DNA of 39,175 bases from Arcobacter sp. F2176 (lineage in GTDB: Bacteria > Campylobacterota > Campylobacteria > Campylobacterales > Arcobacteraceae). The notes beneath the pieces are model-generated. The model saw only the letters and a program-made list of their open reading frames with translations. It ran no database searches and had not been told where the DNA came from. Location of the stretch: positions 1-39,175 of the forward strand of contig NZ_PDJV01000024.1 in the NCBI RefSeq assembly GCF_004116465.1, read 5' to 3'. Shown one piece after another: positions 1-6,395 of this stretch. Each line of letters begins with the position of its first letter. Within the stretch, counting starts at the first letter, position 1. A program made the position numbers and the translations under genes.

Positions 1-59
1 TTTCCTTATTTTTTAAATGTATGGAAGTATATAAATAAAGTGTAAGTTATGTATTAGTT
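1..59 (-). promoter_or_regulatory. Leftward promoter with response-regulator-type direct repeats (gene off window)
   Basis: Read on the minus strand, this edge has two 7-bp direct repeats exactly 11 bp apart (plus-strand GTAAGTT at 42-48 and ATTAGTT at 53-59). They lie 10 bp upstream of a TATACT -10 box (26-31), and a Shine-Dalgarno-like AAGGAAA follows at 1-7. A 21-bp block (23-43) matches 2908-2928 at 20 of 21 positions, so this promoter is a copy of the one upstream of the small secreted protein at 2646-2882. The start codon should lie just left of the window. The controlled gene is not visible. Regulation by the response regulator at 933-1577 is inferred from geometry and proximity. Confidence 0.6.
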
Positions 60-126
60 CTATAATCTTCTATTTTATATGTAAATGTTGATGTTTAATG
101 AGTATTAGATTATAATTCTATCCCTT

Positions 127-144
127 TGGAATAGTTTTATTCCA
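127..144. other. Small perfect hairpin/dyad in the divergent intergenic region
   Basis: TGGAATA (127-133) and TATTCCA (138-144) form a perfect 7-bp inverted repeat around a 4-nt spacer. It lies between the leftward promoter at the window edge and the operon that starts at 242. It could be an operator dyad or a short transcript hairpin. No T-tract follows on either side, so a terminator is unlikely. Confidence 0.35.
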
Positions 145-241
145 TAATGATTAAAAAATAGTTTCTCATGTAATTTAGTAATATAACTAAATAATATTAA
201 GTTAAATAAAATAGAGTTTCACAATAAAAGGAAAAATTTAA

Positions 242-682
242 ATGAATAAACTATTACAAATACCTTTTATAATAGCTTTTTCAATATTTTTAATTGGATG
301 CAGTTTACAAAATACAAGTCAAGTATCTCCAAATAATAAAAATGAAGATTTGCAAAAACAAATAAAAGAAAATATCAATAGTAAGTATTGTAATAAATAT
401 AAAAAAGTAGTGAATTATGCAGCAAGTTATATTGAAAAAGAGTTTGAAGATGGATATTTTTCAAAAAATGATATAGTTGGAGCAAAAGCACAACTTTTTT
501 TAATAGAAAGTAGTTCTCCTACAGTTTTTGCAAAAAATATAAATATAGCAAATGATTCTTATAATTCAAATTATGAATTAGCTAAAAAGAGTAATTGTGA
601 CTTAAGTGAATTCTCGTCTAATCCACTTGTAAAATTAAAAAACAGTATAAAAATACTTGAAGAGAAAAAGGATAAAAAATGA
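242..682 (+). CDS. Small lipoprotein, first gene of the two-component operon
   Basis: This is a 146-residue protein with a type II signal peptide. A hydrophobic stretch at residues 5-18 is followed by the lipobox LIGC with the lipidated cysteine at residue 20, so the mature protein should be anchored to a membrane on the periplasmic side. The mature part is hydrophilic and mostly helical-looking, with two further cysteines (about residues 50 and 118) that could form a disulfide. A good ribosome site (AAAAGGAAA, 226-234) precedes the ATG, and TAAAAT at 207-212 is a possible -10. Its stop overlaps the next gene by 4 bp (ATGA), so it is the promoter-proximal gene of a four-gene operon with a response regulator and a kinase. 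I do not recognise the family. A role as an accessory input to the kinase is inference from context only. Confidence 0.8.
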   Translation: MNKLLQIPFIIAFSIFLIGCSLQNTSQVSPNNKNEDLQKQIKENINSKYCNKYKKVVNYAASYIEKEFEDGYFSKNDIVGAKAQLFLIESSSPTVFAKNINIANDSYNSNYELAKKSNCDLSEFSSNPLVKLKNSIKILEEKKDKK

Positions 683-936
683 TTTTTTTTAAATCTTTGA
701 TTATTCTATTTTTATTTTTGGCAACAAGTTTATTTGCTCAAACAAAAGAAGTAGATAAGTTACTTGAAAAAGTAAATCAAGCTTCAACACCTCAAGAAAA
801 AAAAGAATTAATAGAAAAACTAAAAAAAGAATTGGCTACTAAAAATATAAAAGCAAGACAAGAATCTGATGCAATTATAAAAGCAAAAGAAAAAATGCCT
901 AACGAACTTTTTGATGAAAAAGCAATAGAACAATGA
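679..936 (+). CDS. Small secreted helical protein, paralogue of 2646-2882
   Basis: This 85-residue protein begins with a signal peptide (residues 1-20, cleavage likely after SLFA), leaving a mature protein of about 65 residues that is lysine- and glutamate-rich and probably all helical. Residues 24-50, running from EVDKLLEKVNQAS through KKELIEKLKKEL, align with DVNVLVDKINTAT through RSQLLKKLDARL in the protein at 2646-2882, and the gene lengths and signal peptides also match, so the two are paralogues. It overlaps the lipoprotein before it and the response regulator after it by 4 bp each, implying translational coupling. Small periplasmic proteins encoded with two-component systems (for example CpxP) can act as feedback ligands. 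That role here is inference. Confidence 0.8.
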   Translation: MIFFKSLIILFLFLATSLFAQTKEVDKLLEKVNQASTPQEKKELIEKLKKELATKNIKARQESDAIIKAKEKMPNELFDEKAIEQ

Positions 937-1577
937 GTAAAAAACTAAAAATCTTACTTCTTGAAGATGATGAAATCCTAGCTCAAACTATGGTGCAAAT
1001 TTTAGAACAAGAAAACTATGCTGTAACTTTAGTGAGTGATGGGGAAGAGGTTTTAGAATATACCTATGATAATAAGTATGACCTTTATTTATTTGATGTA
1101 AATGTTCCTTTGCTTGATGGAATGGAGACATTAAAGCTTTTAAGAGAAGCCCAAGATTCTACTCCTACTTTTTTTATTACAGCAAAGATTGATATCAAAT
1201 CGACTCTAAAAGGTTTTGATTATGGTTGTGATGATTATATTAAAAAGCCATTTGATTTAGATGAACTTTTAGCCCGTATTCAAGCAACTTTAAAAAGAAA
1301 AAATCCAGTTGTTCAATACAAAGATATTACTTTTGATTTACTTGAAAGTAGGGTTATAAAAGATAATGTTGAAGTAACACTTGGAAGTGTTGAAAAAGAT
1401 ATTTTCTCTTTACTTATGCGAAATATCGGTATGACTGTTGATAAGTCATCATTTTTTGATTGTATGAATAGACCAAGTGAACCAGCACTTCGAGTTTTGA
1501 TTAGTAAATTAAAAAAAGTTTTAGATTTAGAAATAAGTAATATCAAAGGTATAGGATATAGACTTGAAAAATTATGA
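933..1577 (+). CDS. OmpR/PhoB-family response regulator
   Basis: This 214-residue protein has a receiver domain (about 1-120) and a C-terminal winged-helix DNA-binding domain (about 130-214). The acidic cluster is E11-D12-D13, the phosphoacceptor is D55 in LFDVNVP, the switch threonine is T83 and the conserved lysine is K105 in YIKKPF. The C-terminus ends in the typical IKGIGYRLE hairpin. It is phosphorylated, presumably by the kinase encoded immediately downstream, whose gene overlaps by 14 bp. OmpR-family proteins bind direct repeats spaced about 10-11 bp, and exactly such repeats occur at 42-59 and 2927-2944 beside this operon, making those the best candidate targets. The stimulus is unknown. 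Confidence 0.93.
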   Translation: MSKKLKILLLEDDEILAQTMVQILEQENYAVTLVSDGEEVLEYTYDNKYDLYLFDVNVPLLDGMETLKLLREAQDSTPTFFITAKIDIKSTLKGFDYGCDDYIKKPFDLDELLARIQATLKRKNPVVQYKDITFDLLESRVIKDNVEVTLGSVEKDIFSLLMRNIGMTVDKSSFFDCMNRPSEPALRVLISKLKKVLDLEISNIKGIGYRLEKL

Positions 1578-2598
1578 GAAAAAATCACTTCTTACTACGA
1601 TTGCTCTATTTTTCATACCTTTATTAATACTTGCTAGTATTGTTTTGTATATGTATCAAGTGGATAAAATAAAAGATATAGAACAAAATATCTTATACCA
1701 AATGAAAGATTATACCTTTGATTTCAAAGGTGATAAGTTTTCACTAGATATTGTACAAGATGATAAACAAAAAAAACTTTTCAAAATCTACCATTATGAA
1801 GAGGGACTTTGTGCTTATTTCCAAATCCCAACAACTGGACCTTATCTTTTAAAAGTTATTTATGACAAAAAAAAGTATGAAAAAGTTTATCAAGATTTTT
1901 TGATAAAAATTTTCAAGTTTTCAATAATAGTATCTTTTTCTCTTCTTTTTCTTTCTGTTGGTTTTGCTATGTATTCACTAAGACCTATGAAAGAAGCTTT
2001 GCGTCTTTTGGAAGATTTTTTAAAAGACTTAATCCATGATTTAAATACTCCTGCAACTTCTATTTTACTAAACTCTAAATTATTAAGAAGAAGAGGGGAT
2101 TTTGAAGAGATTGAGAGAATAGAACTTAGTGCTAAAAGTATCTCTTCTTTGTATAAAAATTTAGAACTAATAACTCCAAATGAAATGGCAAAAAGTGAAG
2201 ATGTTTCATTAGAGGAACTTGTCAATGCCAAAATTGAGATTTTGCATAAGTTATACCCTAAAATCAAATTTAACAAAAATATGGAAAATCTAATAATAAA
2301 AAGTAATAAAAATGCCCTTGATCGTATCATTGATAATTTATTAACCAATGCTTGTAAATATAACAAAAAAAATGGGGAAGTAAGCATAAGTACAAAAAAC
2401 CAAAAACTTATAATAGAAGATACAGGAATAGGCATTAAAGATGTAAAAAAAGTATTTCAAAGATATTATAAAGAGAATGAGACAGGACTTGGTATTGGTA
2501 TGAGTATTGTAAAACAGCTTTGTGATATTTTGGATATAAATATAAATATAACTAGTGTGATTGATAAGGGTACAAAGATAGAACTTATTTTTAAATAG
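1564..2598 (+). CDS. Membrane sensor histidine kinase, HAMP-less
   Basis: This 344-residue kinase has two membrane segments (about 10-31 and 117-138) that bracket a periplasmic sensor of roughly 85 residues with no obvious known fold. Only about 20 residues separate the second segment from the phosphorylated histidine H158 (DLIHDLNTP), so there is no room for a HAMP domain. The catalytic domain shows an N box (about 253-265, DNLLTNACKY), a G1 box (DTGIGI from 286) and a G2 box (TGLGIGMS from 307). The start is TTG at 1564, supported by AGGA at 1553-1556. The ATG at 1574 is out of frame. The H box has N-T-P in place of the usual R-T-P. It partners with the regulator just upstream and is followed by a strong terminator. 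Confidence 0.93.
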   Translation: MKNYEKKSLLTTIALFFIPLLILASIVLYMYQVDKIKDIEQNILYQMKDYTFDFKGDKFSLDIVQDDKQKKLFKIYHYEEGLCAYFQIPTTGPYLLKVIYDKKKYEKVYQDFLIKIFKFSIIVSFSLLFLSVGFAMYSLRPMKEALRLLEDFLKDLIHDLNTPATSILLNSKLLRRRGDFEEIERIELSAKSISSLYKNLELITPNEMAKSEDVSLEELVNAKIEILHKLYPKIKFNKNMENLIIKSNKNALDRIIDNLLTNACKYNKKNGEVSISTKNQKLIIEDTGIGIKDVKKVFQRYYKENETGLGIGMSIVKQLCDILDININITSVIDKGTKIELIFK

Positions 2599-2602
2599 GT
2601 TG

Positions 2603-2643
2603 AGTAAAAATCATCTTTGAAAAACTCAAAGATGATTTTTACT
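2603..2643. terminator. Bidirectional terminator between kinase and small secreted protein
   Basis: A perfect 17-bp inverted repeat (2603-2619 with 2627-2643) surrounds a 7-nt loop. A-rich and T-rich flanks form part of the stem, so it can act in both directions. It sits exactly between two convergent genes, the kinase ending at 2598 and the small protein ending at 2646. Confidence 0.85.
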
Positions 2644-2645
2644 AC

Positions 2646-2882
2646 TTAAAGAACTTTCGATATTTTTAGTTTAGTATTAATAATTTGCTGAGCGGTAATA
2701 AGGTCTTCTTGCCCCATTGATGAAAGCCTTGCATCAAGTTTCTTCAATAGTTGGCTTCTTTCATTTAAATTAGTAGCTGTATTGATTTTATCTACTAATA
2801 CATTTACATCATTAATTCCAGCAGCGAATAATCCCGTTGCCCCTAATATTGCAAAAATTGCTATTTGTTTACCTAACTTCAT
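2646..2882 (-). CDS. Small secreted helical protein under a response-regulator-type promoter
   Basis: This 78-residue protein has a signal peptide (residues 1-21, cleavage likely after GLFA) and a helical mature region of about 57 residues. It is a paralogue of the protein at 679-936: D/E-V-x-x-L-x-x-K-x-N-x-A-x near the new N-terminus and an L-x-K-L-x-x-x-L helix line up without gaps. It is transcribed toward the two-component operon, with its own strong ribosome site (AAGGAG, 2889-2894) and a promoter with 11-bp-spaced direct repeats. It is therefore a likely output of that system and possibly also a feedback partner. The function is unknown. Confidence 0.8.
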   Translation of the reverse strand: MKLGKQIAIFAILGATGLFAAGINDVNVLVDKINTATNLNERSQLLKKLDARLSSMGQEDLITAQQIINTKLKISKVL

Positions 2883-2910
2883 ATTTCACTCCTTTTTTTA
2901 AAGATGTGAA

Positions 2911-2944
2911 AGTATATAAATAAAGTGTTAGTTAAGTGTAAGTT
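2911..2944 (-). promoter_or_regulatory. Promoter with two 11-bp-spaced direct repeats (candidate response-regulator site)
   Basis: On the minus strand there is a TATACT -10 box (plus-strand 2911-2916). Ten bp upstream of it are two heptamers, plus-strand GTTAGTT at 2927-2933 and GTAAGTT at 2938-2944, whose starts are 11 bp apart. With a start site near 2904 the repeats cover about -23 to -40, where a class II activator of the OmpR family would replace the -35 box. The same layout with the same spacing occurs at 26-59. The repeats end directly at the pldA stop codon. Confidence 0.65.
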
Positions 2945-3958
2945 TTATCTTGAAAGGCTAATTCCAAAACTAATTCTATTTACTTCTTTGTTATAATCAA
3001 TTAAACTATCCCCATAACCACTAGATAACTGAACAAATCCAAAGGTATTTTTTGAACCCCATAATGGGAAACTCCAATTGAATTGTGCAAAACCCTTATT
3101 AGAATCATCAAATTTTAGATTATTTCTAAGCAATAGTTTAAATGTGTGTGTTTTATATGGTAAATAAAAAGTTAAATCTCCATATCCAAGATAATCTTCT
3201 ATATCAGGGTTATCATCATCTGAATCATCAGGAATTCTATACCAAACTCTTGGACTAAAAAACAAGCTTGAAAATTGGAAATAACTTTGAGCATATAATC
3301 GATTCCATGATCTAGAATCTTCTTTCCCTTGTCCATTTGATTCATGTAAAAAACCAAATTTAAGTGATTTTAAATATGTTTTACCTTTTTTCCCATAAGG
3401 GATTGTAACAAAAACTTCAGGTCTATAATTTGTCTCCCTAAAAGGAGAAGATTCAGAATATAATTGCCACCATGAAGTTTGGGTATATCCAAAGTTAATA
3501 CTCTCTTTTAAACCAAAGAAGTTATAAGTAATAGGTTTTTTTACACTTAATTGAAATACAGTTTCTACATGTTTTCTATCTTTATTAGATTTTGAAGTAT
3601 AAGAAAATGGCAAAAGATAGTTTTCATCATAAGGATAAAGGTCAAAAGAAGAGGCTAAAATTTGAGATAGAGTATTGTTTGTCTCTTTGTCTTCAATTGG
3701 ATTTAATACTTTTTTAGTTGCTTTTACTTCTGCTAGTTTATCTTTATCTATAAATAAAGTAGCTTCATCTGTTTTTGTTTGAGCATCTAAAGTAGATACT
3801 TTTTTTTGCCCATTTTTTGCTATTTGTTTATATATAAGCATAGCTTCTTTGTAGTTATGCTCATCTTCGTATTTTTTAGCTTTTGCATATAGCTCATCAT
3901 TGTTTTCATTTGCAAAAATTGTTGTTATTAAAAATATAAGTATAAATATTTGTCTCAT
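2945..3958 (-). CDS. pldA: Outer-membrane phospholipase A (phospholipase A1)
   Basis: This 337-residue protein has a signal peptide (1-16, IFA cleavage) and a C-terminal beta-barrel of alternating polar and aromatic strands. The catalytic motif HESNG places H205 and S207, with N219 in SRSWNRLY. These lie at a constant +63 offset from the H142, S144 and N156 I recall for E. coli OMPLA, and the calcium-site serine S152 corresponds to S215. The family hydrolyses membrane phospholipid acyl chains at the outer membrane as a calcium-dependent dimer. The extra length is an N-terminal periplasmic extension (about 17-95) that begins with a TPR/Sel1-like helical pair. Its stop codon abuts the response-regulator-type promoter of the next gene, which leaves no visible terminator. 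Confidence 0.9.
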   Translation of the reverse strand: MRQIFILIFLITTIFANENNDELYAKAKKYEDEHNYKEAMLIYKQIAKNGQKKVSTLDAQTKTDEATLFIDKDKLAEVKATKKVLNPIEDKETNNTLSQILASSFDLYPYDENYLLPFSYTSKSNKDRKHVETVFQLSVKKPITYNFFGLKESINFGYTQTSWWQLYSESSPFRETNYRPEVFVTIPYGKKGKTYLKSLKFGFLHESNGQGKEDSRSWNRLYAQSYFQFSSLFFSPRVWYRIPDDSDDDNPDIEDYLGYGDLTFYLPYKTHTFKLLLRNNLKFDDSNKGFAQFNWSFPLWGSKNTFGFVQLSSGYGDSLIDYNKEVNRISFGISLSR

Positions 3959-4002
3959 TTGTCTTCCTATAAAAATATTTGTTATGTTAGCGTAATTTTT
4001 AT

Positions 4003-5613
4003 TTAATTTATAACTTCACATAAATTCCAACGAGAAAAATCATATAATATAAAGTGTTGTTTGTCATACATACATACAGATACTTTATTTAAAGGTATTT
4101 CTTTTAAATTTTGAGAAGCTGTGATTCTTATCTCATATAAAAACTTAGTATCTGTTATCTTTTGACAAAACATTTTGTTTTTACCTTTCATCAAACTCCA
4201 AATATACAAACCATCATCACTAAAGAAACTTTTTGCACCTTCTAGTTTGATTTTTGTTTTTTCCCATTTAAATATATTATTTTGATTTTCCTCTTTTTCA
4301 TCACTATTAGAAAAAGAGTTTAATAGTTTTTTAAATATGTTAGTTTTACTTGAAGGGCTTACTAAATCCATATTTTCACTATAATGATAACTTGTGAGTA
4401 AAGTATAAGGATGTTCTCCTCTTAGTTGCCTATTTATACTACTTCCTTCAACTATGCACCAAATTTTATCATGACTATATGTACACTCATGTAAATAAAT
4501 ATAAGAGGGACTACGCTCATTTATTCCTAGCATGTCTATGATTTCAGGTTCGTTTATTTCTTTATAAATGTTTAGCATTTGACAAGTTGATTTTTTTATT
4601 TTTAGTATGCTTAAAGCTCTGCCTTCTTTTTTAGCAGGGGTATATAAATGTACTAATAAAGTATCATCATTTATAGCTATTACATTTGAATAATCGGGAA
4701 TTCTTAAAAATTCATCTTTTGTTAAATGTTTTAAATCATCAGGATTACTCATCTCATAATAAATAGGATTAGAATTTTCATATAAAGGCATAAATGTGAC
4801 ACCTTGGAGTGTAAGTACAGCTATTCCCTCTCTCCACGCACAGTAAACCAAAGAGTTATCTTTGATTGTCAAGCTATTTATTGTATTGTTTGTGTCTAAA
4901 CAAAAAATATCAAGTCTTGATTCTTTTTTTTCTTTATTATATATTTTAAGGACTACTTTGGTTTTATTGATAAATGATATATTATCTAAAGACTCTTCTT
5001 TTGTTAGTTCAAATTCTTTTATTATTTTTGTTTTTTTTAAAGTAGGTTCTTCATAAGCCATACCTTTTTTTATAAGCTTTTGTATCAGTGGGTCTTTTTT
5101 GTTGTATTTCACTTTTGCAGGATATTCTACGCTTTTAATAAGTTCTGTACTCAATTCAAAGTTATCAAGTAAATAATTTGTAAATTCATGTGAAGTAGTA
5201 CTTCCTAAGAAAGAGTAATCAAATAGTTTTTCATAATCAAAAACAGCTCCAGCTGAAATCCAATCTTTCACATACTCAAGTGCAGAATCCCTAGATAGAT
5301 TTTTTAATATAATTTCATCTTCAATAACTAAAGGTGCATCTTGTAAATATTTTTTAATCATTTTAAGAAGTGAAGTGAAATCATAATTTCTACCATCTTT
5401 TACTTTCATAAATGTAAGTAAAAATATATCATTATCATTTATAAGTTGATTGTTTCTAAGATATTCAAGTCCTTCAATATCATCTTTTTCCCACAAGATT
5501 GTGATATATTGATAATATGGTTCAGTCAGATTTAGCTTTTTTAATTCTTCTAGGTCTTTGACTTTTATCATTTTTAAAAATATTTTTTTATCTTCATTAC
5601 TTATTTTAGTCAT
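4003..5613 (-). CDS. Hypothetical cytoplasmic protein, helical N-half and beta-rich C-half
   Basis: I do not recognise this 536-residue protein. It has no signal peptide or membrane segment. The first ~200 residues are helical and leucine-rich, with short repeated units reminiscent of ankyrin-like or HEAT-like arrays. The remainder is rich in short beta strands separated by polar turns, which would suit a beta-propeller-like domain. It is a single-gene unit: the flanking pldA is separated by 44 bp, and the gene to its right is divergent. A possible ribosome site (AAAAAGGA, 5628-5635) is rather far from the ATG at 5613. The length and steady codon use argue that it is a real gene. Confidence 0.7.
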   Translation of the reverse strand: MTKISNEDKKIFLKMIKVKDLEELKKLNLTEPYYQYITILWEKDDIEGLEYLRNNQLINDNDIFLLTFMKVKDGRNYDFTSLLKMIKKYLQDAPLVIEDEIILKNLSRDSALEYVKDWISAGAVFDYEKLFDYSFLGSTTSHEFTNYLLDNFELSTELIKSVEYPAKVKYNKKDPLIQKLIKKGMAYEEPTLKKTKIIKEFELTKEESLDNISFINKTKVVLKIYNKEKKESRLDIFCLDTNNTINSLTIKDNSLVYCAWREGIAVLTLQGVTFMPLYENSNPIYYEMSNPDDLKHLTKDEFLRIPDYSNVIAINDDTLLVHLYTPAKKEGRALSILKIKKSTCQMLNIYKEINEPEIIDMLGINERSPSYIYLHECTYSHDKIWCIVEGSSINRQLRGEHPYTLLTSYHYSENMDLVSPSSKTNIFKKLLNSFSNSDEKEENQNNIFKWEKTKIKLEGAKSFFSDDGLYIWSLMKGKNKMFCQKITDTKFLYEIRITASQNLKEIPLNKVSVCMYDKQHFILYDFSRWNLCEVIN

Positions 5614-5719
5614 CTTATTTAATAAATCCTTTTTATGACTTTTATACTATCTAAAATATTATTAGAAAATTATGCACTATATTTGTAAAGCACTTATTTT
5701 ATATTTTTAAAAAAAATGA

Positions 5720-5746
5720 TATAATCGCCACAATTAAAGAAAAAGG
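5720..5746 (+). promoter_or_regulatory. Promoter and ribosome site of the rpe operon
   Basis: A perfect TATAAT (5720-5725), preceded by TG in extended -10 style and by an A-tract, is followed by the ribosome site AAAAAGG (5740-5746) before the rpe ATG at 5754. Campylobacterota promoters commonly rely on the -10 box with periodic AT tracts rather than a strict -35. Confidence 0.6.
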
Positions 5747-5753
5747 TATTTTT

Positions 5754-6395
5754 ATGTTAGTTGCCCCCTCGATACTATCAGCTGATTTTGGTAAATTAAA
5801 TGAAGAGATTACTGCAATCTGTGATGGTGGTTGTGATTTGATTCATGTGGATGTTATGGATGGTCATTTTGTACCAAATATGACTTTAGGACCAGTTGTT
5901 GTAACTCCTGTTGCAAAGATTGCTACAAAACCACTTGATGTACATTTGATGGTAGAAAACAATACATTTTTTGTGGATTTATTTGCTCCACTTAAACCTG
6001 AATATATCTCATTTCACATAGAAAGTGAAAAACACCCACATAGACTTATACAAAAAATAAGAGACTATGGAATAAAACCAGCAATCGTACTAAACCCACA
6101 CTCGACTCCTGAATCAATAGAATACTTACTTGAAGATTTAGATATGGTTTTACTAATGTCAGTAAACCCAGGATTTGGTGGACAAAAGTTTATTACAAGT
6201 GTTGTTGAAAAAAGTAAAAAACTAAAAGAGCTTATAAATAAAAGAAATCCAAACTGTCTAATTGAAGTAGATGGTGGAGTAAATGATAAAAATATCCATG
6301 AATTAAAAGCTGCGGGAGTTGATGTTGTTGTAGCTGGTTCTTTTGTATTTTCACAGGATGATTACTCAAAAGCAATAAAATCTCTTCAGGTGTAA
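5754..6395 (+). CDS. rpe: Ribulose-phosphate 3-epimerase
   Basis: This 213-residue TIM-barrel enzyme interconverts ribulose 5-phosphate and xylulose 5-phosphate in the pentose phosphate pathway. It shows the family signatures: SILSADFG at the N-terminus, the metal-site blocks HVDVMDGHFVPN and DVHLMVE, SVNPGFGGQ near residue 140 and the phosphate-binding DGGV loop. The length is normal for the family. It is the first gene of an operon with trpF, a DnaQ-like exonuclease and an HD protein, and trpF starts 1 nt after its stop. Metabolic coupling to trpF is not obvious, so the operon looks like a housekeeping assembly. Confidence 0.97.
   Translation: MLVAPSILSADFGKLNEEITAICDGGCDLIHVDVMDGHFVPNMTLGPVVVTPVAKIATKPLDVHLMVENNTFFVDLFAPLKPEYISFHIESEKHPHRLIQKIRDYGIKPAIVLNPHSTPESIEYLLEDLDMVLLMSVNPGFGGQKFITSVVEKSKKLKELINKRNPNCLIEVDGGVNDKNIHELKAAGVDVVVAGSFVFSQDDYSKAIKSLQV

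Follow-up and report, generated by a model that had tools for sequence, protein, structure and literature searches.

Most known examples of periplasmic proteins that serve as accessories of two-component systems come from enterobacteria and staphylococci. The CpxRA system of Enterobacteria pairs an OmpR-type regulator with a small helical periplasmic protein that is encoded nearby and strongly induced by it, CpxP acts back on its kinase, and CpxP and Spy are both regulator-induced periplasmic helical proteins (PMC6737893). The saePQRS operon of Staphylococcus aureus encodes a lipoprotein, a second envelope protein, a regulator and a kinase; the auxiliary proteins act on the kinase, and the regulator binds GTTAA-N6-GTTAA direct repeats, which have an 11-bp period (PMC5083920). 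In Campylobacter jejuni, the targets that the OmpR-type system DccRS activates are few and encode putative periplasmic and membrane proteins (PMC9449129). Here we describe a block of genes in Arcobacter sp. F2176, one of the environmental bacteria related to Campylobacter, for whose composition an original prediction had known no described system, which was too strong a claim because saePQRS shares its layout (PMC5083920) and CpxP and Spy share the induction logic predicted for it (PMC6737893). A search of the accessible literature for Arcobacter two-component systems with small secreted proteins returned nothing matching.

The block lies in the first 4 kb of the window, by which we mean the whole 39,175-nt stretch of DNA that was analysed and to which all coordinates refer. 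Four tightly coupled genes (242-2598) encode, in order, a lipoprotein (LP), a small secreted protein (SP-A), a response regulator and a histidine kinase, and successive genes overlap by 4, 4 and 14 nt. A convergent gene, which lies downstream of a promoter of the response-regulator type, encodes SP-B, and profile comparisons (E about 1e-3 to 1e-11) show this protein to be a paralogue of SP-A. Both the operon and the convergent paralogue had been predicted from the DNA, and the domain matches, the lipobox, the structural model and the promoter repeats agree with that prediction.

Table 1. Features of the block, with positions in the window.
Feature	Coordinates	Strand	Remarks
Putative SP-C promoter/operator	25..58	-	tandem 11-bp repeat ACTAATACATAACTTACACTT + TATACTT; gene left of base 1
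LP, lipoprotein with helical domain	242..682	+	lipobox and invariant Cys pair C50/C119
SP-A, 85-aa small secreted helical protein	679..936	+	4-nt overlaps with LP and regulator genes
OmpR-type response regulator	933..1577	+	Response_reg 4.8e-27
Sensor histidine kinase, HAMP-less	1564..2598	+	TTG start; HisKA + HATPase_c
Long hairpin between convergent stop codons	2601..2645		folding energy -23.4 kcal/mol, z-score -8.1
SP-B, 78-aa small secreted helical protein	2646..2882	-	paralogue of SP-A and SP-C
Putative SP-B promoter/operator	2910..2943	-	two 11-bp repeats, ACTTACACTTAACTAACACTT + TATACTT; 27 nt ahead of start codon

The regulator and kinase have the parts of an OmpR/PhoB-type two-component system, namely a receiver, a winged-helix output domain with a weak Trans_reg_C match that falls below the Pfam cut-off (2.4e-4), and a kinase with HATPase_c (6.8e-17) and HisKA (6.5e-6, 0.4 bits under the cut-off) matches. 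Kinase residues H158, D286/G288/G290 and G308/G310 are invariant, and the TTG start is backed by the N-terminus MKNYEKKS, which is kept across homologues. In an AlphaFold2 model of the kinase (mean pLDDT 78), TM1 is followed by a periplasmic domain of about residues 33-118, with a helix and four strands, and a single unbroken helix (102-175) leads from TM2 into the phosphotransfer domain. The label HAMP-less is correct because this modelled helix is continuous, and Pfam likewise gave no HAMP match in the kinase, whereas CpxA has a HAMP linker. The kinase scored 43.6 bits against the ArsS family NF038389, for which the NCBIfam cut-off is 250, and is thus not a member; a fold search with the kinase was dominated by the catalytic core and gave nothing about the sensor part.

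The envelope proteins of the operon resemble those of saePQRS in their place, as the order lipoprotein, accessory envelope protein, regulator and kinase is the same in both, but SaeQ has four membrane helices and SP-A is a soluble secreted protein, with a signal peptide that ends LFA and no other hydrophobic segment. LP has the lipobox IGCS, with Cys20 invariant across 12 homologues, and an additional invariant cysteine pair, C50/C119. Its helical domain is well predicted (residues 41-146, pLDDT about 80 or more). LP matched no family in Pfam or NCBIfam, and a fold search against the PDB returned unconvincing helical matches only (best E 0.6); a role like that of SaeP or NlpE would be only an analogy.

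The signal peptide of SP-B also ends LFA. The hairpin between its stop codon and that of the kinase gene is a probable bidirectional terminator for the kinase operon and SP-B; an Rfam scan of window 1-6000 detected no RNA family. The original prediction counted two small proteins, of which the paralogy of SP-A and SP-B holds, but the number is at least three, because the gene of a third paralogue, SP-C, in divergent orientation, spans the contig break immediately to the left of base 1. The body of SP-C, which is 52% identical to SP-B, lies at the start of another contig (G000:C7:2-202), and in the closed genome G001 both contig ends map adjacently, with about 45 bp between them and an intact SP-C. 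The position of SP-C recalls Vibrio cholerae, where cpxP is divergent upstream. Another kinase gene lies a little past SP-C (G000:C7:1579-2724), and a regulator-kinase pair is found near SP-C, in a similar position, in L035 and L119. On the other side, an outer-membrane phospholipase A1 gene (2945-3958) lies beside SP-B; it was rejected as a member of the module because it adjoins SP-B in five genomes only.

Upstream of SP-B and SP-C we found a consensus of ACTWACACTTA-ACTWACACTT followed, after 6-8 nt, by the -10 box TATAMTT. Tandem direct repeats of about 10-11 bp before a -10 box are a target feature of OmpR/PhoB-type regulators, and this is the usual place for an activator of that type. 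Exactly two copies of GTATATAAATAAAGTG are present in the genome, one at 27-42 and the other at 2912-2927, and the element at 25-58 belongs to SP-C and not to the operon. In the loci examined, the operator precedes each SP-B/C gene or tandem group and is absent upstream of the LP gene in every case. A period test similarly detected a significant 11-bp repeat in most SP-B promoters, with little at periods of 10 and 12, and none in the operon promoters; a simple sigma-70 scan gave no more matches than shuffled DNA. Autoregulation of the operon through this operator was thus rejected, which differs from the autoregulated saeP promoter, although direct repeats of 11-bp period are common to the two systems.

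We also searched whole genomes with the full pattern of operator and -10 box. Among 22 genomes there were 23 sites, each with its end some 22-33 bp ahead of the start codon of an SP gene, and the reversed pattern gave none. The site in G035 serves a diverged 67-aa SP-like small secreted gene in the place of SP-C. In G091, the same operator precedes an SP paralogue that lies about 1.8 Mb away from the operon, which indicates that shared flanking DNA does not explain the association and argues for regulation in trans. A relaxed search of three genomes within the genus yielded about as many extra sites as the reversed control, which suggests that the regulon consists of just the SP genes, although diverged operators may escape detection. 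One relaxed site (G000:C6:40041-40061; L060:1501-1521), with a single mismatch and TATAATT, lies just 3' of an rsmE-like gene and points into a convergent OmpR-type regulator gene; it is present in G001 and was not found in G002, and, as it does not precede a gene, we record it as a side observation. From linkage and co-occurrence we infer that the regulator of the operon acts at this operator, in which case it very probably controls almost only the SP small proteins. The prediction that a paralogue is an output of the regulator is strongly supported for SP-B and SP-C, as judged from a repeat unique to their promoters within the genome; the original interpretation as a whole is partly supported, with an input role for SP-A and a feedback-ligand role for SP-B as its predicted parts. 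Cpx, in contrast, controls many genes, and Sae has many virulence targets and no paralogous outputs; DccRS is alike in having few envelope-protein targets, and in the accessible part of the literature on it we found no SP-type gene described inside or beside the operon.

The block is conserved as a unit. A query with the kinase returned 20 loci in named genomes, and eleven of these loci (L032-L042) share with the window the identical order LP, SP-A, regulator, kinase and convergent SP-B. Among 104 Arcobacteraceae genomes, the full block is present in 22, and kinases of at least 60% identity coincide with the SP family in 22 of 22, whereas the 82 genomes without such a kinase gave only three weak SP matches (E 3e-4 to 9e-4), one of which is a DUF1104 protein. 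The window kinase and 18 relatives form one clade with support of 100/100, and the block also occurs in two genomes labelled Sulfurospirillum, which is of another family, with kinases that nest inside the Arcobacteraceae clade. Each of the 22 genomes has retained SP-A, which forms a divergent group of its own with distinct conserved residues and whose gene often overlaps that of the regulator. The original prediction of a self-contained conserved module is therefore strongly supported, as failure of the small proteins to co-occur with the kinase in relatives was what would have spoken against it. A locus titled 'uncultured archaeon' (L031) has a kinase 99% identical to that of the window, and the archaeal label of this MAG is probably wrong.

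Further observations concern the evolution of the SP genes. Extra, shortened or degenerate SP genes with intact operators (L117:2720-2911, G059:C18:635-814, L115:5159-5362) show local duplication and decay of the family. Window 2450-2940, which spans the 3' end of the kinase gene, the terminator, and SP-B with its promoter, matches G002 at about 95-100% identity, compared with about 83% on either side; synonymous divergence from G002 is 0.02 for SP-B and 0.8 for its neighbours. Recent recombination between species is likely here, with constraint as the alternative. Of six usable species pairs outside the genus, five show lower synonymous divergence for SP-B than for its regulator and kinase genes, as would be expected for a highly expressed gene.

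More distant kinases (35-51% identity, plus others in Campylobacterales) adjoin genes for longer secreted proteins, about 55 residues of which can be aligned to the mature SPs. The clade of the window kinase sits next to groups with such proteins, and in its sister clades a secreted protein with this core domain is often encoded directly after the kinase. In some relatives (L044, L046, L110, L155, L163), related 11-bp repeats lie either just beyond the stop codon of the kinase or in front of the gene for the secreted protein; in several distant relatives, the simple period test gave no 11-bp repeat above shuffled DNA. In gene order, the distant relatives retain the logic of a kinase followed by a secreted protein.

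The longer proteins also appear to bridge to DUF1104 (PF06518), of which H. pylori HP0721 (PDB 2xrh) is an example. Comparison by hhalign gave 97% for the SPs against the longer relatives (E 8e-11) and 95% for the longer relatives against DUF1104 (E 2e-8), both E values being for a single comparison, and 13% for the SPs against DUF1104 directly; across 200 column-shuffled profiles, no score was as high as any of these three. SP-A and SP-B have no match to PF06518 in Pfam, and only through the longer relatives does a link to it appear. Nor did SP-A and SP-B match the LTXXQ/CpxP profiles (PF07813), which sets them apart from CpxP, or show significant similarity to solved structures by sequence or to characterised chaperones; one distant relative, in L043, has a weak, sub-cut-off CpxP match, the sole such case.

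DUF1104 proteins are themselves small, secreted and helical, and matches to this family occur in 72 of 104 Arcobacteraceae genomes, with an adjoining regulator gene at all of the ten best loci (L137-L146). The genome of the window has a second operon (G000:C10:10411-12457; L166:909-2957), in which the gene for a small secreted DUF1104 protein immediately precedes those for an OmpR-type regulator and a kinase of 394 aa; this kinase belongs to a separate clade, far off in the tree from that of the window. DUF1104-like proteins appear to be associated with several two-component systems of Campylobacterota. A plausible history would be that one kinase-linked, regulator-driven secreted protein was duplicated in Arcobacteraceae and that one copy entered the operon as SP-A.

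Based on the observed gene content, order, conservation and co-occurrence, and on the operator and its near-exclusive placement, we consider it probable that the block is a dedicated envelope two-component system whose regulon includes little beyond its own family of small periplasmic proteins, of which SP-B and SP-C would provide feedback. LP and SP-A would be produced together with the regulator and kinase from the overlapping genes, and would most likely sit at the small periplasmic domain of the kinase as accessories or inhibitors. A signal at the envelope would raise kinase activity, and the phosphorylated regulator would then occupy the pair of 11-bp repeats that covers the -35 region in the SP-B and SP-C promoters, and so switch on these genes. 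Their products may accumulate in the periplasm as protective helical proteins of the Spy kind and, given their paralogy to SP-A, would probably also restrain the kinase through negative feedback. The likeness to CpxRA lies in small helical secreted proteins beside an OmpR-type system, predicted here to be regulator-induced; an extra paralogue built into the operon is a difference. Only tentatively do we propose a more specific form, in which SP-A sets the kinase, induced SP-B and SP-C compete with it at the sensor, and a family of DUF1104-like ancestry is both reference input and sole output.

A line from sensor to output without contact between the SPs and the kinase, with SP-B and SP-C as effectors (e.g., a periplasmic chaperone or a membrane-binding protein) and SP-A as a basal copy, seems to us unlikely. 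Such a line would fit SP-B and SP-C as the sole conserved targets, as well as the distant relatives, which have the core domain as a secreted protein after the kinase gene, with no SP-A seen. It is the retention of SP-A, as a divergent group with its own conserved residues inside the signalling operon of all 22 genomes, that suggests a distinct job there. We regard it as highly improbable that SP-A, SP-B and SP-C are exported signals or toxins under quorum-type two-component control, with SP-A or LP giving self-recognition. Small secreted proteins next to a kinase, in varying number and with local duplication and decay of SP-B/C, would suit that reading, but their signal peptides are typical of Sec with no Gly-Gly leader, no dedicated exporter or peptidase is among the adjacent genes, and the mature domain is conserved and common to larger secreted proteins. 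Least probable is that another regulator binds the repeat and the neighbourhood is merely historical linkage, since, even in a genome with several further two-component systems, including the DUF1104 operon, the SP genes and the kinase clade are gained and lost together across the family, the operator marks those SP genes, and the unlinked SP gene retains it.

Returning to the dedicated system with feedback, we conclude that the module is real, conserved and specific, yet of a kind with known parallels in Cpx/Spy- and Sae-like logic, although the features compared place it in neither system. It provides an independent, compact and conserved case of accessory proteins in Campylobacterota. Because its predicted regulon is almost confined to one family and the operator is predicted exactly, signal, output and feedback should be separable by few gene deletions. 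Furthermore, it offers a first regulatory context for DUF1104-like small secreted proteins.
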